Shown here: in pieces, positions 7,967 to 47,836 of the stretch
Numbering within the stretch: the stretch's first letter is position 1
How the letters are laid out: each line of letters opens with the position of its first letter
Source of the DNA: Halobacterium noricense
GTDB lineage: Archaea > Halobacteriota > Halobacteria > Halobacteriales > Halobacteriaceae
DNA length: 64,000 bases
Reading direction: 5' to 3'
Assembly: GCF_021233435.1 (NCBI RefSeq)
Contig: NZ_CP089468.1
Span: forward strand, 558,001 to 622,000
Made by a program: the position numbers and the translations under genes
The notes under the pieces: generated by a model
The model's input: only the letters and a program-made list of their open reading frames with translations
Databases searched by the model: none
Told to the model about the DNA's origin: nothing

Positions 7967-8127
7967 AGCCGGAATTTTGCCACATACGTGTTTCACTCTA
8001 ACGGACTTCTATTACAGTTTTGCTTGGACTATCCAAACTCCGGTTGCGCGGCGGGACCGACGCCGCGGAACGGGCGGCGCCCGCGCGAAGCGAAAGCGGG
8101 TTTGTGGACGGGGCCGAACGTCCGCCC

Positions 8128-8730
8128 ATGACCTCCGTCTCCGACTACGCGAGAGCGAACCCGCGCCGCGTCACCGTCGTCCTCTCGGTCGTCGGCTACG
8201 CGCTCGTCGCCGCTGCCTTCTCCGGCATCGTTCCGCTGTTCCCGCCGCTCTCAGACGAAACCGTGCTGCTGTTCTCGGACGCCATCGCCGTCGTGAACAC
8301 GCTCGCGCTCACCAGCCTACTCGTGGGTGCGGCCTTCATCAAGCGCGGCGACGTCCGGAGACACCGCGCCGCGATGCTGACCGCATTCGCGCTCATCTGC
8401 GTGTTCCTCGTGCTCTACCTCTGGAAAGTCGGCGGCGGCTTCGAGAAGTCCATCGTCATCGAGGAAGGCCAGTTCCTCGCCCGGTACGCGGGCGTCGTCG
8501 AGATTCTGTACCTCATCATGCTCGCCATCCACATCTTCCTCTCCGTCGTCGCCGTCCCCGTCGTCCTCTACGCCATCACGCTCGGCCTCACGCACACCCC
8601 CGAGGAACTGCGGGAAACGAGCCACGCCAAGTACGGCCGGATTGCCGTGACGGCGTGGTCGCTGTCGCTGTTCCTCGGCGTCGTCACCTACTGGATGCTC
8701 AACCACGTCTACTCCTGGGTCCCGCGCTAG
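8128..8730 (+). CDS. DUF420 membrane protein, probable cytochrome oxidase assembly factor
   Basis: 200 residues from the ATG at 8128; the 36-residue extension upstream is low-complexity. About five or six hydrophobic segments are visible, with conserved histidines in the C-terminal half (LAIHIFLSVVAVPVVLY and HAKYGRIAV). The DUF420/CtaM-like family is tied to cytochrome oxidase maturation in several bacteria. Its position at the left border of the cox block supports such a role, perhaps in copper or heme insertion. The exact function is inferred from context. Confidence 0.85.
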   Translation: MTSVSDYARANPRRVTVVLSVVGYALVAAAFSGIVPLFPPLSDETVLLFSDAIAVVNTLALTSLLVGAAFIKRGDVRRHRAAMLTAFALICVFLVLYLWKVGGGFEKSIVIEEGQFLARYAGVVEILYLIMLAIHIFLSVVAVPVVLYAITLGLTHTPEELRETSHAKYGRIAVTAWSLSLFLGVVTYWMLNHVYSWVPR

Positions 8731-11717: not shown

Positions 11718-13094
11718 TCAGACCACCATCGCGTCCACGACGACGGCCACCAGCAGGCAGCCGAGGTAGGCGTTCGACGCGTGGAACGCGCGCATCGCGG
11801 CGGCGCGGTCGCGCTCCCGGTGGAGGCGCATCGCGGCGTACAGGAACACGCCACCGAAGACGACCGTCGTCGCCGCGTACAGCACGCCGAGGCCAGCGAG
11901 CGCGGACAGCGCCACCGCGGCGACGAGCGTCGCGCCGAGGTAGTAGACGATGTGCTTGCGGGTCGTGGCTTCGCCGCTGACGACGGGCATCAGCGGGAAG
12001 CCGCCGCGCTCGTAGTCGTCCTTGTACGCGAGCGCGAGGTTGTAGAAGTGCGCGGGCGTCCACAGGAATATGACCGCCGCGAGCGCGAGGCCCGCGACGC
12101 CCACGTCGCCCGTCACCGCGGCCCAGCCGATGAGCGCGGGGAGCGCGCCCGCTGCGCCGCCGATGACGGTGCTCTGTCGGGTGTTGGGCTTCAACACGAG
12201 CGTGTACACCACCGAGTAGAACACGATGGCGGTGAACCCGAGCGCCGCGGTCAACGGGTTCACCGAGTAGAACGCGGCCAGCGACGCCGCCGCCAGCATC
12301 ACGCCGAACGCGATGGCGTTGCGCTTCGGGATGCGGTCGGTCGCCAGCGGCCGGTCGTCGGTGCGGGACATCTTCCGGTCTTTCTCGCGTTCGAGCACGT
12401 GGTTGAACGTGCCCGACGCGCCGATGGCGAGCACGCCGCCGCCGAGCGTCGCGACAACGGTCTCCGCGCGGAGGCTCGGCCCAGCGGCCAGCGCCATGCC
12501 GGCGGCGGCGACCAGGCACAGCAGCCACATCAGCCGCGGCTTCGTCAGCCGGAAGTACGCGTACGCGGTCGCCAGCGGCCCCGAAACGGGGACGCTGTCG
12601 TCGCCGTCGTCGCCTTTCGGCTCACCCTCCCACTCCGCGGACGGGAGGTGGCCCGTCTGGAGTTCCAGCGTCCACGCGAGCGCGGCGACCAGGCCGGCGA
12701 AGATGAGCACGCCGAGCGCGAGGTGTGCGCCGCCGAGCGCGGCCGACGCCGGCGTCGTCGCGGTGAGCGCGCCGACCGCGATTTGGACCGGGTAGGCGGC
12801 CAGCGCGGCGGTGACCGCGGCGCGGACGCGTGTGGAGGAGTCACGCCGCCACGCCATCACCGCGGCGGCGAGCACGAGCACGCCGGTGACGACGGCGGCG
12901 GTCCGGTGGCCCCAGACAACCGCCAGCGACAGCGAGTCGAGGGCGTACCAGCGTCCGTCGCAGGCCGGCCACGAGCGACACGCTGCGGCTGCGTTCGTCA
13001 GCGCGGCCGTCGCGCCGACGACGAGCAGCGCGTAGACGCCCATCGCGGCCGCCGCGAGCACCGCCGTGAACCGGTCGGGGATGTTTCGAGTCAC
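11718..13094 (-). CDS. ctaB: CtaA-like domain fused to CtaB heme o synthase
   Basis: 458 residues if started at the GTG at 13094 (VTRNIPDRF); a GTG at 13130 would add 12 residues. The N-terminal third has four hydrophobic segments with WGHRTAAVVTG and GAHLALGVLIF, the paired-His pattern of a half-size heme A synthase (CtaA/COX15). The C-terminal two thirds is a UbiA prenyltransferase: NHVLEREKD and YKDDYERGG, the Asp-rich motifs of protoheme IX farnesyltransferase. The enzyme would make heme o from heme b and farnesyl-PP, and may also carry the next step to heme a. It is divergent from coxB. Confidence 0.9.
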   Translation of the reverse strand: MTRNIPDRFTAVLAAAAMGVYALLVVGATAALTNAAAACRSWPACDGRWYALDSLSLAVVWGHRTAAVVTGVLVLAAAVMAWRRDSSTRVRAAVTAALAAYPVQIAVGALTATTPASAALGGAHLALGVLIFAGLVAALAWTLELQTGHLPSAEWEGEPKGDDGDDSVPVSGPLATAYAYFRLTKPRLMWLLCLVAAAGMALAAGPSLRAETVVATLGGGVLAIGASGTFNHVLEREKDRKMSRTDDRPLATDRIPKRNAIAFGVMLAAASLAAFYSVNPLTAALGFTAIVFYSVVYTLVLKPNTRQSTVIGGAAGALPALIGWAAVTGDVGVAGLALAAVIFLWTPAHFYNLALAYKDDYERGGFPLMPVVSGEATTRKHIVYYLGATLVAAVALSALAGLGVLYAATTVVFGGVFLYAAMRLHRERDRAAAMRAFHASNAYLGCLLVAVVVDAMVV

Positions 13095-13167
13095 GAACGT
13101 CTCTCGTCGGCTGATTACGCCGCGGCCCACTTAGCCTATCCGACTCGCCGACGCCCCGATTCAGCAC

Positions 13168-13202: not shown

Positions 13203-13970
13203 ATGAGAGGCAAGCGGCTCGTACCCGTTCTCGTCGCCGCCGTCGGCTTCCTCGCCGCCTTCGTGGACCCGGTCGCTGCCCAGCAGTACCAGTCGGTGAC
13301 CGAGGAGCTCATCCGCAACCTGAACTCGATGCTGCTCGCGGCCGCGCTCCCCGTCACGCTGCTCGTCGAGGGCATCCTCGTCTACACGGTGTGGAAGTTC
13401 CGGAACAGCGACGAGGCGAAACCGACCAAGGAGAACCGCCGGCTCGAAATCACGTGGACCGTCGCCACCGCCGTCGTCCTCCTGTTCGTCGGCGTCGCCG
13501 CCTACGGCGTGATGGCACAGCCGTCGGTCACGGCGACGCAGGCCGACGCCCAGGCGGCGATGGCCGAAGACGACACCGTCGTCGTCGACGCCGTCGGCGT
13601 CCAGTGGTACTGGAACTACCAGTACCCCGAGGAGAACCTCACGGTGAGCTCCGGCGCTGCGACCGGCGACGTCGACGTCGGCAACCAACCGATGGTGGTC
13701 CCGGAGGACACGAAGCTCGTGATACGCACGCAGTCACAGGACGTGATTCACGCGTTCCACGCGCCCGAAATCGGCCTGAAGGCCGACGCCGTCCCCGGGC
13801 AGACCAACTACCTCATCACCGAGGTCAACGAGAAGGGCACCTACCAGCTCTACTGCGCCGAGTTCTGCGGCCAGGGCCACTCCGAGATGCTCGGCACCAT
13901 CGCGGTCGTCGAGGAAGACACCTACCAGGAGTGGGTCGAGGACCCCGAGAACACGACCATCGACGTTTAA
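13203..13970 (+). CDS. coxB: cytochrome c oxidase subunit II
   Basis: 255 residues with a signal-like N-terminus ending near AFVDPVAAQ, two transmembrane helices, and a C-terminal cupredoxin domain facing outside. The CuA ligands are visible: H183 in IHAFHAPE and the C218-x3-C222-x3-H226-x2-M229 motif (CAEFCGQGHSEM). The aromatic stretch QWYWNYQYPE is the electron-entry region. It receives electrons from a small donor, in haloarchaea probably a halocyanin. It is transcribed divergently from the heme o synthase gene. Confidence 0.96.
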   Translation: MRGKRLVPVLVAAVGFLAAFVDPVAAQQYQSVTEELIRNLNSMLLAAALPVTLLVEGILVYTVWKFRNSDEAKPTKENRRLEITWTVATAVVLLFVGVAAYGVMAQPSVTATQADAQAAMAEDDTVVVDAVGVQWYWNYQYPEENLTVSSGAATGDVDVGNQPMVVPEDTKLVIRTQSQDVIHAFHAPEIGLKADAVPGQTNYLITEVNEKGTYQLYCAEFCGQGHSEMLGTIAVVEEDTYQEWVEDPENTTIDV

Positions 13971-14899: not shown

Positions 14900-15763
14900 T
14901 TAGAAGCTGACGATCGCGCCGGCGTACAGCACGACGACGAGGAAGATCCAGACGGCGTCGACGAAGTGCCAGTACATCGAGACGGTGGCCACGGAGACGT
15001 CGCGCTCGTGGGAGTACTGGCCCTTGAACGCGCGGACGGTCACGATGGCCAGCAGCACCGCACCGAGGGAGACGTGGAGGCCGTGGAGGCCGGTCAGCCC
15101 GAAGAACGCGCTCTCGAAGATGCCGCCGGTCGGCGACAGCCCCTCGTGGACGATGAACTCGTAGTACTCGTACACCTGGCCGGCGATGAATATCACGCCG
15201 AGCACGAGCGTCGAGACGAGCAGCGAGAGGAACCGCGACCGGTCGCCCTCCCGGAGCGCGACGTGCGCGAAGTGCAGCGTGATGCTGGACAGCACGAGGA
15301 TGGCGGTGTTCGCGAGCACGAGCGCGCCGAGGAACCCCTCGGGGACGTGCTGGACTGCTTGGGACCACTGCGAGCCCGCGCGGATGAAGAAGTAGTAGAC
15401 GAACCCGGCACCGAACGTCGCAATTTCCGTGCCGAGGAACAGTATCATCCCCCAGCGGAGCGCCGCGCCGCCGGTCGTCTCCCGGCTCCAGAAGTGTTTC
15501 ACGAAGGCGTGGTACACCCAGCCGTACAGGCCCGCGAGGAAGACGAACACGCTCCCCACGAAGACGGCCGGCCCGACCATCGGAGTGACGAACCCGAACG
15601 TCTCGTTCTGTCCGAGCACGTACAGCGCGGCGCCGATGTAGAACCCGGCGGCACCGACGGCGGTGACGAACGGCCACCAGCTGGCCTCGCCGAAGCCCTT
15701 CGGCCAGTCCTCCACGGCCGGCAGGTGGTGGCCGTGGTCCTCTGAGTCGTCCGTGACGGTCAT
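14900..15763 (-). CDS. coxC: cytochrome c oxidase subunit III
   Basis: 287 residues from the ATG at 15763. Seven hydrophobic segments follow a short acidic N-terminus. Family motifs include WGMILFLGTEIATFGAGFVY and GLHGLHVSLGAVLL, and the end VSMYWHFVDAVWIFLVVVLY is diagnostic. A longer upstream frame on the same strand is an arginine-rich shadow and is excluded. Subunit III stabilises the proton-pumping core and helps proton uptake. It is transcribed opposite to coxA and coxB, so the oxidase genes are not a single operon here. Confidence 0.95.
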   Translation of the reverse strand: MTVTDDSEDHGHHLPAVEDWPKGFGEASWWPFVTAVGAAGFYIGAALYVLGQNETFGFVTPMVGPAVFVGSVFVFLAGLYGWVYHAFVKHFWSRETTGGAALRWGMILFLGTEIATFGAGFVYYFFIRAGSQWSQAVQHVPEGFLGALVLANTAILVLSSITLHFAHVALREGDRSRFLSLLVSTLVLGVIFIAGQVYEYYEFIVHEGLSPTGGIFESAFFGLTGLHGLHVSLGAVLLAIVTVRAFKGQYSHERDVSVATVSMYWHFVDAVWIFLVVVLYAGAIVSF

Positions 15764-15862: not shown

Positions 15863-17236
15863 ATGTCTCGTCGCGGCGCGCGCGTGCTCGGTGCCGTCGT
15901 CGGCCTCGTCGCGGTCTGTGGCGTCGCTGTCGCGCACGGCGGCAGCCTCCGCGACGCCAGCGGACAGGAACTGGCGGTGCCGACGTGGCTGTTTCTCTCG
16001 ACGGGCGGCGCCGTCGTCGGCGCGTCGTTCCTGCTGGCGAGCTTCGTCACGGACCGCGAATTCGTCGCGGCCGTCCACGAGTGGCATCACCCCCTCCCCG
16101 CGCCTCGGCGCGTGCTCGCGTGGGTCGGCCACGTCGTCGGCCTCGCGGGGTTCGCGTTCGTCCTGCTCACTGGGTTCGCGGGGCCGACCGAGCCGCTCCG
16201 GAACGGTGCCATCGTGCTGGTCTGGGTGGGCTGGTGGGCGGCGTTCGCCATGTCGACGTACCTCGTCGGGAACTCGTGGCCCGCCGTGAACCCGTCCCGG
16301 ACGCTCACGCGCCCAGTCGCGTGGGTGCTCGACGGCCGCGACGTCGCGCTCTCGCCGGGCCGTGCGGCGTGGGCGTCGACGGCGTTCCTGCTCGCGCTCG
16401 TCTGGTTCGAGGTCGTCAGCCCGCTCGCCGACGAACCGCGGCTGCTGGCCGCGACTGCGGTCGGCTACCTCGTGCTCTCGGTGGTCGGCGTCGTCGCGGT
16501 CGGCCACGACCAGTGGTTCGACGAGGTCGACCCGCTCTCGCGGCTGTTCGCGATGTACGGGTCGGTCGCGCCCGTCCAGCGTACCGACGACGGCCTCGAC
16601 CTCCGGCTGCCGGCGATGCGGCTGACCGACGAAGTCGTCACCACGAACGGCGGCGTCGCGTTCGTCGTCGCGCTCGTCTGGGGGACGACCTACGACGGGT
16701 TCGTCGGCACGCCCGCGTGGGCGTCGTTCGCGCGCACGGTCGTCGACGCCGGCGTCCCCGCGCCAGTACTCTACCCGGCAGCGCTCCTCGCCGGCTTCCT
16801 CGGATTCCACCGGCTCTACTGGTGGGCCGCCCGGAACGCCCGCGACGTCGCGCCGACGTACACGGACGCCGCCGTGCTCGCGCGCCGGTTCGCGCCGTCG
16901 CTGCTCGCCATCGCCGCGGGCTACCACCTCGCGCACTACCTCGTGTACGCGCTATCGCTGTCCCCCTCGCTGTTCGGCGCGCTGCTCGCGCCCCTGGACC
17001 CGCCGGTCGCGCGCACGCTCGTGCTCCCGAGTTGGCTCTCCGGCGTCGGCGTCGCCGCGGTCCTGCTCGGCCACCTGCTCGCCATCTGGGTCGCGCACGC
17101 CACCGCCTACGACGAACTCCCCGGCCGCCTGCAGGCGATTCGCAGCCAGTACACGCTTACGCTCGTGATGGTGTTCTACACGATGACCAGCCTCTGGATA
17201 ATCGGCCAGCCGGCCGCCGAACCACCGTTCCTATGA
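15863..17236 (+). CDS. large conserved membrane protein of the cox cluster
   Basis: 457 residues. An N-terminal signal-like helix (VLGAVVGLVAVCGVAVAHGG) is followed by about ten further hydrophobic segments. Conserved His and Trp residues occur in EWHHPLPAP, FHRLYWWAARN and GYHLAHYLVYAL, which could bind metal or heme. The stop overlaps the start of the small zinc-finger gene by 4 bp. The set from here to 18198 runs codirectionally into coxA, so these are likely oxidase-associated. I cannot assign a biochemical function. Confidence 0.8.
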   Translation: MSRRGARVLGAVVGLVAVCGVAVAHGGSLRDASGQELAVPTWLFLSTGGAVVGASFLLASFVTDREFVAAVHEWHHPLPAPRRVLAWVGHVVGLAGFAFVLLTGFAGPTEPLRNGAIVLVWVGWWAAFAMSTYLVGNSWPAVNPSRTLTRPVAWVLDGRDVALSPGRAAWASTAFLLALVWFEVVSPLADEPRLLAATAVGYLVLSVVGVVAVGHDQWFDEVDPLSRLFAMYGSVAPVQRTDDGLDLRLPAMRLTDEVVTTNGGVAFVVALVWGTTYDGFVGTPAWASFARTVVDAGVPAPVLYPAALLAGFLGFHRLYWWAARNARDVAPTYTDAAVLARRFAPSLLAIAAGYHLAHYLVYALSLSPSLFGALLAPLDPPVARTLVLPSWLSGVGVAAVLLGHLLAIWVAHATAYDELPGRLQAIRSQYTLTLVMVFYTMTSLWIIGQPAAEPPFL

Positions 17237-17490
17237 CTAACACCACCGACGCCCCCGACGACGCGCCCCGGTGCTCGTACTGCGGCGAGGCGTTCCCGAC
17301 CGAGCGGCTGCGCGCGCTCCACCGCGGGCTCGAACACTACGAAAGTCTCGACGAGGGCGAGCGCGCGGCCTTCGAGGACGCGTACCACAGCGAGAGCGAG
17401 GACCTCCGGTCGTTCCGGCTGCGCGCGCTCGCCGCGCTCGTCGCGCTGTACTTCGGCTTCCTGATGACGTACGCCGTGGTCGCCGTCTGA
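17233..17490 (+). CDS. small C2H2 zinc-finger membrane protein
   Basis: 85 residues from the ATG at 17233, overlapping the preceding stop by 4 bp. The N-terminus has a C2H2-like finger: CSYCGEAF with H and H in LHRGLEH. A single hydrophobic helix ends the protein (LAALVALYFGFLMTYAVVAV). The finger would face the cytoplasm beside the membrane. Coupling to the large membrane protein suggests they act together, perhaps in cytochrome oxidase assembly. Confidence 0.8.
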   Translation: MTNTTDAPDDAPRCSYCGEAFPTERLRALHRGLEHYESLDEGERAAFEDAYHSESEDLRSFRLRALAALVALYFGFLMTYAVVAV

Positions 17491-17534: not shown

Positions 17535-17897
17535 ATGGTCGAGCAAACGGAGCAGGGACTGAGCGACCAGTACCCGCGCGCCAGCCCGTGGCCGATTCCG
17601 CTCGTGTTGGGCCTCGTCATCTCCGAGATTGGCATCCTCTTCGACGGGTTGCTCCCCGTCGCTGTCGGCGGATTAGTGCTGCTCGCGGGCAGCGTCGTCG
17701 GCATCCTCCGCGAATCCGGGTTCGCATCCACGCTGCACCGGCCCGCGCTGGCGGTCGCCGCGGTGTTCGGGGGGCTCGGCGGCCTGCTCTACGTCGCCAC
17801 GTCCGCGACCGCGCGCGGCCTCGCACTCGGCGGCACCGGTATTGTCGTCGCCGCCGCCTCGGTCGCGCTGTTCCTCCTCGAAACCGGTCGCCTGTAG
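17535..17897 (+). CDS. small cox-cluster membrane protein
   Basis: 120 residues from the ATG at 17535. Four hydrophobic segments alternate with short loops: IPLVLGLVISEIGILF, LLPVAVGGLVLLAGSVVGIL and two more. The protein has no charged active-site motif and resembles an uncharacterised haloarchaeal protein that is regularly found beside cox genes. It follows the zinc-finger gene by 44 bp on the same strand. A role as accessory oxidase subunit or assembly factor is inferred only from position. Confidence 0.78.
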   Translation: MVEQTEQGLSDQYPRASPWPIPLVLGLVISEIGILFDGLLPVAVGGLVLLAGSVVGILRESGFASTLHRPALAVAAVFGGLGGLLYVATSATARGLALGGTGIVVAAASVALFLLETGRL

Positions 17898-17955: not shown

Positions 17956-18198
17956 ATGAGTTCCACCATCTTCGACACGGACACCCTCCTCGACCTCACG
18001 GTCAACATCGTCCCGCTGGCCATCCTCGCGTTCTTCTTCGTGGCCTTCGTGGCCGTGAACCCGTGGGGGTCGGGATTCACGCTCGAACGCGTCCTCCAGT
18101 TCATCCTCGTCGGCTGGATGCTGGTCGGGCTCTCCATCCTCACGTACGTCGCCGCCAAGCGCATCGAGACCGGCGAGGAAGAAGTCGGCCCGTACTGA
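17956..18198 (+). CDS. 80-residue two-helix cox-cluster protein
   Basis: 80 residues from the ATG at 17956, supported by the TATA box 28 bp before it. Two hydrophobic helices (VNIVPLAILAFFFVAFVAVN and VLQFILVGWMLVGLSILTYV) flank a short loop NPWGSG. The C-terminus is charged and acidic. It is small, strongly hydrophobic and 123 bp upstream of coxA in the same direction, so it may be a small oxidase subunit. No catalytic residues are seen. Confidence 0.82.
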   Translation: MSSTIFDTDTLLDLTVNIVPLAILAFFFVAFVAVNPWGSGFTLERVLQFILVGWMLVGLSILTYVAAKRIETGEEEVGPY

Positions 18199-18321: not shown

Positions 18322-20055
18322 ATGGCCTCGTCATCACTGGTGCTAACCGTGCTGATGGGCGTGCTTCTCGTCGCGGTGGCTGCTTCCCTCGCGCGTCTCG
18401 AGGACTGGCGGTCGTACACGCCTCTCAGCGACGTCGGCGGTGCGCTCGGGGAGCGCACCGAACACGGACACGAAGAGAAGCCGGGCGGCGTCGTCCGGTG
18501 GCTCACGACGGTCGACCACAAGGACATCGGGATTCTCTACGGCACGTACGGTGCCATCGCGTTCGTCTGGGGCGGCCTCGCCGTGCTCCTGATGCGCATC
18601 GAGCTCGCCGCGCCCGCGACAAACATCATCGACCCCGCGCTGTACAACGGCCTCCTGACTAGCCACGGCATCACGATGCTGTTCCTGTTCGGGACGCCGA
18701 TGATTGCGGCGTTCGGGAACTACTTCATCCCGCTGCTCATCGGTGCCGACGACATGGCGTTCCCCCGCATCAACGCCATCGCGTTCTGGCTGCTGCCGCC
18801 GGGCGCGCTCCTCGTCTGGGCGGGCTTCCTGCTGCCGGGCGTCGCGACCGCCCAGACCAGCTGGACGATGTACACGCCGCTGTCCATTCAGATGTCCAGC
18901 CCCGCCATCGACATGATGCTGCTCGGCCTCCACCTCACGGGGGTCTCGGCGACGATGGGGGCGGTCAACTTCATCGCGACCATCTTCACCGAGCGCGGCG
19001 ACGACGTCGGCTGGCCGAGCCTCGACATCTTCTCGTGGACGATGCTCACGCAATCCGGGCTGATCCTGTTCGCGTTCCCGCTGCTGGGCAGCGCGCTCAT
19101 CATGCTGCTGCTCGACCGCAACTTCGGCACGACCTTCTTCACGGTCGCCGGCGGTGACCCGATTCTCTGGCAACACCTGTTCTGGTTCTTCGGCCACCCC
19201 GAAGTGTACATTCTCGTGTTGCCGCCGATGGGCATCGTCAGCCTCGTGCTGCCGAAGTTCTCGGGGCGGAAACTGTTCGGGTTCAAGTTCGTCGTCTACT
19301 CCACGCTGGCTATCGGCGTGCTCTCGTTCGGCGTGTGGGCCCACCACATGTTCACCACGGGAATCGACCCGCGGCTCCGCGCGAGCTTCATGGCGGTGTC
19401 GCTCGCGATTGCGATACCATCCGCCGTGAAGGTGTTCAACTGGATTACCACGATGTGGAACGGCAAGCTCCGACTCACCGCGCCGATGCTGTTCTGCATC
19501 GGCTTCGTCCAGAACTTCATCATCGGCGGCGTCACCGGCATCTTCCTCGCCGCCATCCCCGTCGACCTCATCCTCCACGACACCTACTACGTCGTCGGTC
19601 ACTTCCACTTCATCGTCTACGGTGCTATCGGCTTCGCGCTGTTCGCGGGCACCTACTACTGGTTCCCGATGGTCACCGGTCGGATGTACCAGAAGCGGTT
19701 CGCGCACGCGCACTTCTGGCTCGGCCTCGTCGGGTCGAACCTGACGTTCCTGGCGATGCTGTGGCTCGGCTACGGCGGCATGCCGCGGCGGTACGCGACG
19801 TACCTCCCGCAGTTCGTCACCGCCCACCAGATCGCGACCGCGGGCGCGTTCCTCATCGGCATCAGCACCCTGCTGTGGGTGTGGAACATGGTCGTCTCCT
19901 GGAAGGAGGGCCCCAAGGTCGACAGCGGCGACCCGTGGGACCTCGACGAGACGGGCCAGCTCACCAACGACTGGGAGTGGTACGAACAGCAGCGCGAGTC
20001 GCCCGTCCCGGCGACGGACGGCGGCGAATCCGACGACGCCCAGTCCGCGGACTGA
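18322..20055 (+). CDS. coxA: cytochrome c oxidase subunit I (aa3, A1 type)
   Basis: 577 residues with the heme-copper oxidase core. The CuB ligands are H292 in GHPEVY (cross-linked Tyr at 296) and H341/H342 in WAHHMFTTG. The heme ligands H427 and H429 are in VVGHFHFIVYG. E294 inside GHPEVY marks the A1 class with a proton-pumping D-pathway, and NYFIPLLIGADDMAFPR fits. The N-terminal ~60 residues add one extra hydrophobic segment before LTTVDHKDIG. It reduces oxygen to water and pumps protons. The gene has its own TATA-like box and follows several small cox-cluster genes on the same strand. Confidence 0.97.
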   Translation: MASSSLVLTVLMGVLLVAVAASLARLEDWRSYTPLSDVGGALGERTEHGHEEKPGGVVRWLTTVDHKDIGILYGTYGAIAFVWGGLAVLLMRIELAAPATNIIDPALYNGLLTSHGITMLFLFGTPMIAAFGNYFIPLLIGADDMAFPRINAIAFWLLPPGALLVWAGFLLPGVATAQTSWTMYTPLSIQMSSPAIDMMLLGLHLTGVSATMGAVNFIATIFTERGDDVGWPSLDIFSWTMLTQSGLILFAFPLLGSALIMLLLDRNFGTTFFTVAGGDPILWQHLFWFFGHPEVYILVLPPMGIVSLVLPKFSGRKLFGFKFVVYSTLAIGVLSFGVWAHHMFTTGIDPRLRASFMAVSLAIAIPSAVKVFNWITTMWNGKLRLTAPMLFCIGFVQNFIIGGVTGIFLAAIPVDLILHDTYYVVGHFHFIVYGAIGFALFAGTYYWFPMVTGRMYQKRFAHAHFWLGLVGSNLTFLAMLWLGYGGMPRRYATYLPQFVTAHQIATAGAFLIGISTLLWVWNMVVSWKEGPKVDSGDPWDLDETGQLTNDWEWYEQQRESPVPATDGGESDDAQSAD

Positions 20056-20070
20056 GCCGCACGAGTTTTT

Positions 20071-20157
20071 CTACGCGAGAACGAGCACGAAGCCGGTCAG
20101 GAACATCAGGAGTGCGATACCCGCCAGCACCACGAACATGAGCTCCTTGTCTTCCAT
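20071..20157 (-). CDS. 28-residue single-helix membrane protein
   Basis: A complete frame MEDKELMFVV... of 28 residues with stop at 20071. Four charged residues precede one hydrophobic helix that fills the rest of the protein (LMFVVLAGIALLMFLTGFVL). It is convergent with coxA, 15 bp beyond its stop, and divergent from the 96-residue cox-cluster protein. Size and shape resemble tiny single-helix subunits known in some oxidases, such as subunit IIa of Thermus ba3. No ribosome-binding site is evident. Whether it is expressed is unproven, but the codon choice is coding-like. Confidence 0.62.
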   Translation of the reverse strand: MEDKELMFVVLAGIALLMFLTGFVLVLA

Positions 20158-20217
20158 ACCCGGCCTGTTGGCGGCGACACCGCAAAAGGCTACCCACTCC
20201 GCTGCCTACGACTGCGC

Positions 20218-20508
20218 GTGAGCGAACCCGACACGCGCGGTCGACGAGTGGTGCTGTGGATGTACGCCTCCGCGGTCGCCGTCGCCGGGCTGTTCGGCTA
20301 CGTGCTCGGCATCATCGTCTACGGGGACGGCGGCGGTCCCTCCGGGCCGCTCGTGGAGGGGTCGGGCGCGGCCTACGGGGCCGTCGGCCCGATTACGTTC
20401 CAGTTGAACCCGCTGAACCTCGCGCTGTTCGGCATCGTCTCCGTGGGAATTCTGCTCGGCATCGGCCTCCTGGCAATCATTTTCGTCTCCGAGCGCGCCG
20501 ACGCCTGA
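20218..20508 (+). CDS. two-helix membrane protein of the cox region
   Basis: 96 residues from a GTG at 20218. Helix 1 is WMYASAVAVAGLFGYVLGII and helix 2 is LALFGIVSVGILLGIGLLAI, separated by a Gly/Pro-rich extracytoplasmic loop of about 40 residues. No cofactor motif is seen. It lies just right of coxA, in the same direction, with the 28-residue gene between on the other strand. Probably another oxidase-associated protein; function unknown. Confidence 0.75.
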   Translation: MSEPDTRGRRVVLWMYASAVAVAGLFGYVLGIIVYGDGGGPSGPLVEGSGAAYGAVGPITFQLNPLNLALFGIVSVGILLGIGLLAIIFVSERADA

Positions 20509-23073: not shown

Positions 23074-23110
23074 AAGGAACCGGTCGGGTGCGTGGCCGAG
23101 CAACGCGGGG

Positions 23111-23287
23111 CCACGTTGATGCGAGCGGGGAGGAACGACCCGTGAGCCGCGTGGCGAACGAAGCGAGCCACGTTGATGCGAGCGGGGAGGAACGACCCGT
23201 GAGCCGCGTGGCGAACGAAGCGAGCCACGTTGATGCGAGCGGGGAGGAACGACCCGTGAGCCGCGTGGCGAACGAAGCGAGCCACGT
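23111..23287. repeat. 57-bp tandem repeat, three exact copies plus a partial
   Basis: Units begin at 23111, 23168 and 23225, with six more bases at 23282-23287. The copies are identical by eye. Each unit junction contains CGTGGC-N11-GCCACG, so every unit can form a small stem-loop. The loop contains GAACGAAGCGA, which resembles the motif at the window's left edge. A related inverted repeat (GCGTGGCC...GGGCCACG) lies just left at about 23090-23116. The array fills most of the gap between mcmA1 and the CBS/ParB gene. It is a minisatellite, not a CRISPR: there are no spacers. Confidence 0.93.
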
Positions 23288-23301
23288 ACGCAGCTACCGG
23301 C

Positions 23302-47737: not shown

Positions 47738-47836
47738 ATGGGTCCCGTCGAACTGCTACTGGCGCTGCTGTTCGCCGTGGTGTTCGCCGCGTTCGCGTAC
47801 CTGCTCCCGCAGGTGTACGAGACACTCCACTCGTGA
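47738..47836 (+). CDS. 32-residue single-helix membrane protein
   Basis: A complete frame MGPVELLLALLFAVVFAAFA... of 32 residues ending YLLPQVYETLHS. One strong hydrophobic helix spans most of the protein, with a short polar C-terminal tail. It is divergent from pccB with about 85 bp between starts. A TATA-like AAGATTAC lies about 30 bp upstream. Too short to be classified; the frame and promoter make it plausible as a real small membrane protein. Confidence 0.5.
   Translation: MGPVELLLALLFAVVFAAFAYLLPQVYETLHS

Follow-up and report, generated by a model that had tools for sequence, protein, structure and literature searches.

CydX is a very small single-helix accessory of the bd oxidase. In the A-type aa3 enzymes of Paracoccus and Rhodobacter, subunit IV is an additional subunit with a single helix. 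CcoM of the Pseudomonas cbb3 oxidase has 36 amino acids (PMC10433244). Subunit IIa belongs to B-type oxidases, where its gene lies directly upstream of coxB and its product replaces the helix that is missing from CoxB; the archaeal IIa proteins have 53–78 residues or are fused to halocyanin (PMC3128077). Little is known about how the terminal oxidases of haloarchaea are composed of subunits and assembled. For the “cytochrome aa3” of Halobacterium, an absence of CuA and CuB was reported, and the haloarchaeal respiratory chain was listed among the open issues in a 2021 review (PMC8305020).

The 64,000-nucleotide stretch of Halobacterium noricense DNA analyzed here (the window) contains, next to a coxA gene, a frame of 28 codons that is called u28 below (Table 1). 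Its predicted product is MEDKELMFVVLAGIALLMFLTGFVLVLA (28 residues), with the ATG at 20157 and the stop codon at 20073–20071 on the minus strand. The coxA frame ends at 20055 and the two stops are separated by 15 bp (20056–20070). The strongly hydrophobic, convergent frame described in the initial annotation is found at exactly 20071–20157. The peptide has one hydrophobic stretch and a GRAVY value of 1.84. Its calculated monoisotopic mass is 3082.69, and digestion with trypsin would yield just MEDK and a single hydrophobic peptide of 24 residues. A bare frame of 28 codons is weak evidence for a gene, since the window holds 96 open reading frames of 24–34 residues. Only two of these 96, u28 included, have an 18-residue stretch whose Kyte-Doolittle hydropathy averages 2.0 or more. 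It is conservation that separates u28 from chance.

Table 1. Features of the oxidase locus around u28, with positions counted from the first letter of the window
Feature	Position	Strand	Basis
DUF420 gene (CtaM family)	8125–8730		
CtaA-like/CtaB (UbiA) fusion, heme O/A synthesis, single gene	11718–13130	minus	PF01040, E 6.8e-61; PF02628, E 1.6e-8
coxB (subunit II), own transmembrane domain	13203–13970	plus	PF00116 and PF02790 (COX2_TM)
coxC (subunit III)	14900–15763, start inferred	minus	assigned by sequence; homologues at cox loci
457-aa hydrophobic protein	15863–17236	plus	no Pfam family over cut-off
85-aa protein, DUF7410 domain, CxxC motif	17233–17490	plus	PF24166, E 7.5e-7
DUF7541 membrane protein	17535–17897	plus	PF24396, E 2.9e-33
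DUF6684 small membrane protein, upstream of coxA	17956–18198, start codon approximate	plus	PF20389, E 4e-29
coxA, A-type cytochrome c oxidase subunit I	18322–20055	plus	PF00115, E 1.8e-147; TIGR02891, 687.9 bits (cut-off 670.75)
u28, gene for a 28-aa single-helix membrane protein	20071–20157, stop codon included	minus	frame, conservation, pN/pS, helical conserved face
Promoter-like element between u28 and DUF7520	20180–20199	minus	conserved in 13 genus copies; u28 strand GAGTGGGTAGCCTTTTGCGG
DUF7520 small membrane protein, divergent from u28	20218–20508	plus	PF24364, E 1.2e-15

Elsewhere in the window, another strongly hydrophobic short frame of 32 residues (MGPVELLLALLFAVVFAAFAYLLPQVYETLHS) is located at 47738–47836 on the plus strand and adjoins an acyl-CoA carboxylase-like gene on the opposite strand; it is present in seven of 26 genomes of the family, all from one genus. 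Direct repeats (ccacgttgatgcgagcggggaggaacgacccgtgagccgcgtggcgaacgaagcgag), each roughly 63 bp long and about three in number, occupy positions 23100–23290, just upstream of a methylmalonyl-CoA mutase-like gene.

The locus is that of a complete A-type oxidase, as indicated by a coxB with both COX2_TM and the CuA-type Cys motif CAEFCGQGHSEM, the CtaA-like/CtaB fusion, the DUF420 gene and an ABC transporter in the cluster. CoxA carries the A-type motif GHPEVY. Like subunit IIa (CbaD; Thermus, Aquifex, Natronomonas), u28 would be a tiny protein with a single transmembrane helix, encoded at an oxidase locus and often unannotated. However, the partner of IIa is of the B-type, whereas the coxA beside u28 passes the TIGR02891 cut-off for the CtaD/CoxA equivalog; the IIa gene is found upstream of a one-helix coxB, whereas u28 lies downstream of coxA at a locus where coxB has the PF02790 domain. 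The “missing helix” explanation for IIa is therefore inapplicable. The Pro-x(1-3)-Gly-Thr/Ala motif and the conserved Trp/Tyr of IIa have no counterpart in u28, which in the window contains neither Pro nor Trp, and neither residue is common at any column of the alignment. Homology of u28 to IIa was rejected on these grounds, and the likeness to subunit IIa of the Thermus ba3 oxidase drawn in the initial annotation does not hold. The wider proposal of an undescribed oxidase-subunit gene stands as far as a conserved, apparently unannotated single-helix protein tied to this coxA across Halobacteriales is concerned.

Selection on the frame was assessed with the 13 copies from the genus. Pooled pS in frame is 0.449 and pN is 0.111, with a pN/pS of 0.25 (from pairwise counts, uncorrected for shared ancestry), and the differences per site at codon positions 1, 2 and 3 are 0.18, 0.05 and 0.36. 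Read in any other frame, this DNA gives a ratio near one or higher, often with stops; the exception is one antisense frame with 0.47. The sense frame is to be preferred, since it has the lowest ratio and is the one whose start, stop and promoter-like element are conserved. The length of the product varies between 27 and 32 residues and is exactly 28 in 59 of 74 distinct copies, and its amino-acid motif is retained down to about 50% identity. A chance frame, or conservation that belongs to a non-coding regulatory element, would accord with the abundance of short frames in this GC-rich window. Such an origin was rejected as extremely improbable in light of the pN/pS and the third-position bias, and the conserved start and stop, the retained motif and the helical periodicity described below speak against it as well. 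Overall, u28 is almost certainly a genuine gene.

The AAAA at 20184–20187 corresponds to a TTTT 27–30 nt upstream of the u28 ATG, and a TTT occupies positions −28 to −26 in about 80–89% of the 74 distinct copies. The haloarchaeal TATA box is “TTWT” and 72% of protein-coding transcripts in Hfx. volcanii are leaderless (PMC4983044). The fixed spacing between the TTT and the ATG suggests a leaderless mRNA that starts at the ATG; u28 would thus be expressed from its own promoter, probably without a leader. The divergent arrangement with DUF7520 is conserved and the promoter region is apparently common to both genes, so the element may serve DUF7520 as well. As u28 is transcribed opposite to coxA, its amount need not equal that of coxA.

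All 13 genomes of the genus contain u28. Among 293 sampled Halobacteriales genomes it is detected in 190 at E ≤ 1e-3 and in 216 at E ≤ 0.1, and most of the weakly scoring genomes that were checked carry a diverged copy at the same place. The conservation of the frame beside coxA in other haloarchaea, which had been proposed as a check, was thereby confirmed by its spread as well as by its pN/pS. A profile search of contigs with a narrower u28 alignment gave 16 named loci. Nine genomes have this coxA and no u28 match. In four of them (G016, G030, G072 and G119) a second search found a diverged copy at the locus, and in two others (G129 and G157) a hydropathy screen detected a 28-residue frame (MPRKETLGLLLL... 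and MPRKETIGLLLV..., respectively) between coxA and DUF7541/coxC, to which the profile gave no match. G131 shows a weak match at a contig end that adjoins coxA. No copy was found in G202 or in G098, the latter only 71% complete. Outside Halobacteriales, a sample of 247 genomes of the phylum gave no relative at E ≤ 1e-3.

The position of u28 is closely tied to coxA. It is located 21–1086 bp past the 3' end of coxA at 76 of the 80 loci for which both places are listed, with 70 of these 76 convergent and six on the same strand; u28 is far from coxA in a few genomes (L054, L055, L070). This coxA is present at E ≤ 1e-180 in 210 of the 293 genomes of the order, including 185 of the 190 with u28 (E ≤ 1e-3). 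The Fisher p of 3e-42 for their co-occurrence is inflated and serves as a description only, since phylogeny is ignored. DUF7541 and DUF7520 are absent too from all 25 tested genomes that have neither coxA nor u28. It is very probable that u28 has an oxidase-linked role, be it in assembly, stability or maturation or as a subunit. Very small hydrophobic peptides frequently act as regulators or as type I toxins, and u28 might be one that stands beside coxA by happenstance, but this is highly unlikely for a gene with one dominant locus across Halobacteriales that is lost together with the oxidase.

In one genome (G112:C1:2648495-2650217) the coxA matches fall into three adjacent pieces, a pattern suggestive of frameshifts or of a faulty assembly; u28 is still detected there.

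The association is with one type of coxA. Where an examined genome has more than one coxA gene, u28 accompanies only the copy that has DUF7541, DUF6684 and DUF7520 as neighbors. The coxA copies with these neighbors mostly have u28, and most of the second coxA paralogues examined lack it, among them those at L086, L087, L089, L091, L094, L097, L099 and L105. A link of u28 to any coxA was rejected because of these sister paralogues, and the fact that they manage without u28 is a counterpoint to a dedication of u28 to the oxidase. At L098, coxA occurs with DUF6684 and DUF7541 and without u28, and the same genome has a u28 with DUF7520 elsewhere (L054). Within one family (f8), several genomes still have u28 beside DUF7541 and DUF6684, with coxA located elsewhere; the closest coxA in these genomes is only about 57% identical and lies within a longer open frame (764–779 aa), the length of which fits a putative coxA-coxC fusion.

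At L105 (G154:C2:297000-304000), the second coxA has DUF6684 directly downstream on the same strand, which is the reverse of the usual order.

Paralogues of u28 are found in clusters for the handling of copper. On Halobacterium megaplasmids, diverged copies of u28 occur with copies of DUF7541 and DUF7520 (L025, L026, L027), and at L025 (G000:C2:292000-311000) also with copies of the 457-aa and DUF7410 proteins. These three clusters encode a NosL-NosD fusion (657 aa), a NosF/NosY-like ABC transporter and DUF7350, and two of them (L025 and L026) a CopA-type heavy-metal P-type ATPase. In several other genera (L048–L053) a third subtype of u28 is present in clusters with copies of the 457-aa, DUF7410 and DUF7541 proteins; at L048 it stands in line between two DUF7350 genes, near a CopA-type ATPase and a multicopper oxidase, identified from its sequence by eye. 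The paralogues form separate diverged subtypes (VNDKSLMM... and MEEKHLLL...). DUF7541 is present in most u28 contexts, these clusters included.

Inspection of the paralogous clusters for a hidden COX1 gene found none. All four COX1 genes of the window genome are on contig C1 and none is on the plasmid with the u28 paralogue, while the single COX1 of G024 is beside its other u28. The accessory set may therefore be able to work without an oxidase of its own, which makes copper-site maturation a serious rival to a role dedicated to the oxidase. According to this explanation, u28 belongs to a copper-handling module of membrane proteins, together with DUF7541, DUF7520 and the 457-aa and DUF7410 proteins. 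The module would deliver copper or insert it, here for the oxidase and at the paralogous loci for other copper proteins, without u28 itself binding CoxA. Both the partners of the module proteins on the megaplasmids and the company kept by the third subtype are in favor of it, as is the distribution of COX1 genes. We nevertheless consider it rather unlikely: the coxA locus is by far the commonest context of u28, whose presence tracks this coxA, u28 has no conserved Cys or His for metal binding, and the diverged paralogues may be later recruits to a new role. The broader proposal, that these five proteins constitute an undescribed haloarchaeal copper-site maturation module, copies of which have moved, is put forward tentatively. 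If it is true, one version would serve the main cytochrome oxidase, with the u28 helix as its smallest part, and copies would have reached the copper-handling clusters together with the NosL-NosD, NosF/NosY and CopA genes.

The helix itself points to a protein partner. Across 76 distinct cox-type copies, the entropy of the u28 alignment columns peaks at 100 degrees per residue (permutation p ~1e-4), and the conserved face comprises L7, L11, I14, A15, M18, G22 and L25. The simplest reading of one conserved face is packing against another protein, although it could also reflect self-association. Candidate partners are CoxA, DUF6684, DUF7541 and DUF7520. We somewhat favor u28 as a dedicated accessory of the A-type oxidase built on this coxA, which helps to assemble or stabilize the enzyme. 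We infer that the peptide is translated and would insert in the membrane as one transmembrane helix, the conserved face of which would pack against some membrane protein associated with CoxA in its complex. Its most likely action would be to help assemble or stabilize the oxidase together with DUF7541, DUF6684 and DUF7520, and it may or may not remain in the finished enzyme.

A stoichiometric structural subunit of the mature oxidase, like IIa, CcoM or the Paracoccus subunit IV, would likewise show one conserved helix face, tight linkage to one coxA type and small size. This is doubtful as judged from the transcription opposite to coxA, the paralogues without COX1 nearby and the absence of any solved oxidase chain related to u28 in sequence. 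If u28 were purely an oxidase subunit, paralogues in copper clusters would not be expected. It overlaps with the preferred accessory role, which leaves residence in the enzyme open, and more generally the assembly factor, the copper module and the resident subunit are not mutually exclusive. Between a resident subunit and an assembly or maturation factor, the balance is close to even.

The gene appears to have been overlooked, being near-universal and apparently unannotated. No Pfam or NCBIfam family matches u28 over its curated cut-off, the best hits being far below, and a profile search of the PDB gave no relative and no oxidase chain. No description of the peptide was found in the part of the literature covered by the search, and the copy on the H. 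hubeiense plasmid has no annotated feature in PLSDB, the gene tables of which are incomplete. Hfx. volcanii has been searched for conserved very short proteins (PMC4983044), so the u28 orthologue may already appear there among the hypothetical proteins. The case illustrates that a conserved bioenergetic gene can escape automated annotation across an order, and u28 offers a direct target for testing how the main haloarchaeal oxidase is built.

Among the other small oxidase proteins, subunit IV of the Paracoccus and Rhodobacter aa3 enzymes is longer than u28 and has no detectable sequence relation to it. The CtaM/DUF420 assembly factors are, like u28, small membrane proteins of the cox cluster, but they are larger, polytopic and encoded by a separate, unrelated gene. 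In common with the tiny oxidase accessories, u28 is a genuine coding gene that stays below about 50 codons, is linked to one particular oxidase and disappears along with it. By analogy, it may work like CcoM, CydX or IIa. CcoM and CydX, which belong to oxidase classes other than that of u28, provide the best functional analogy, as very small single-helix accessories of respiratory oxidases.
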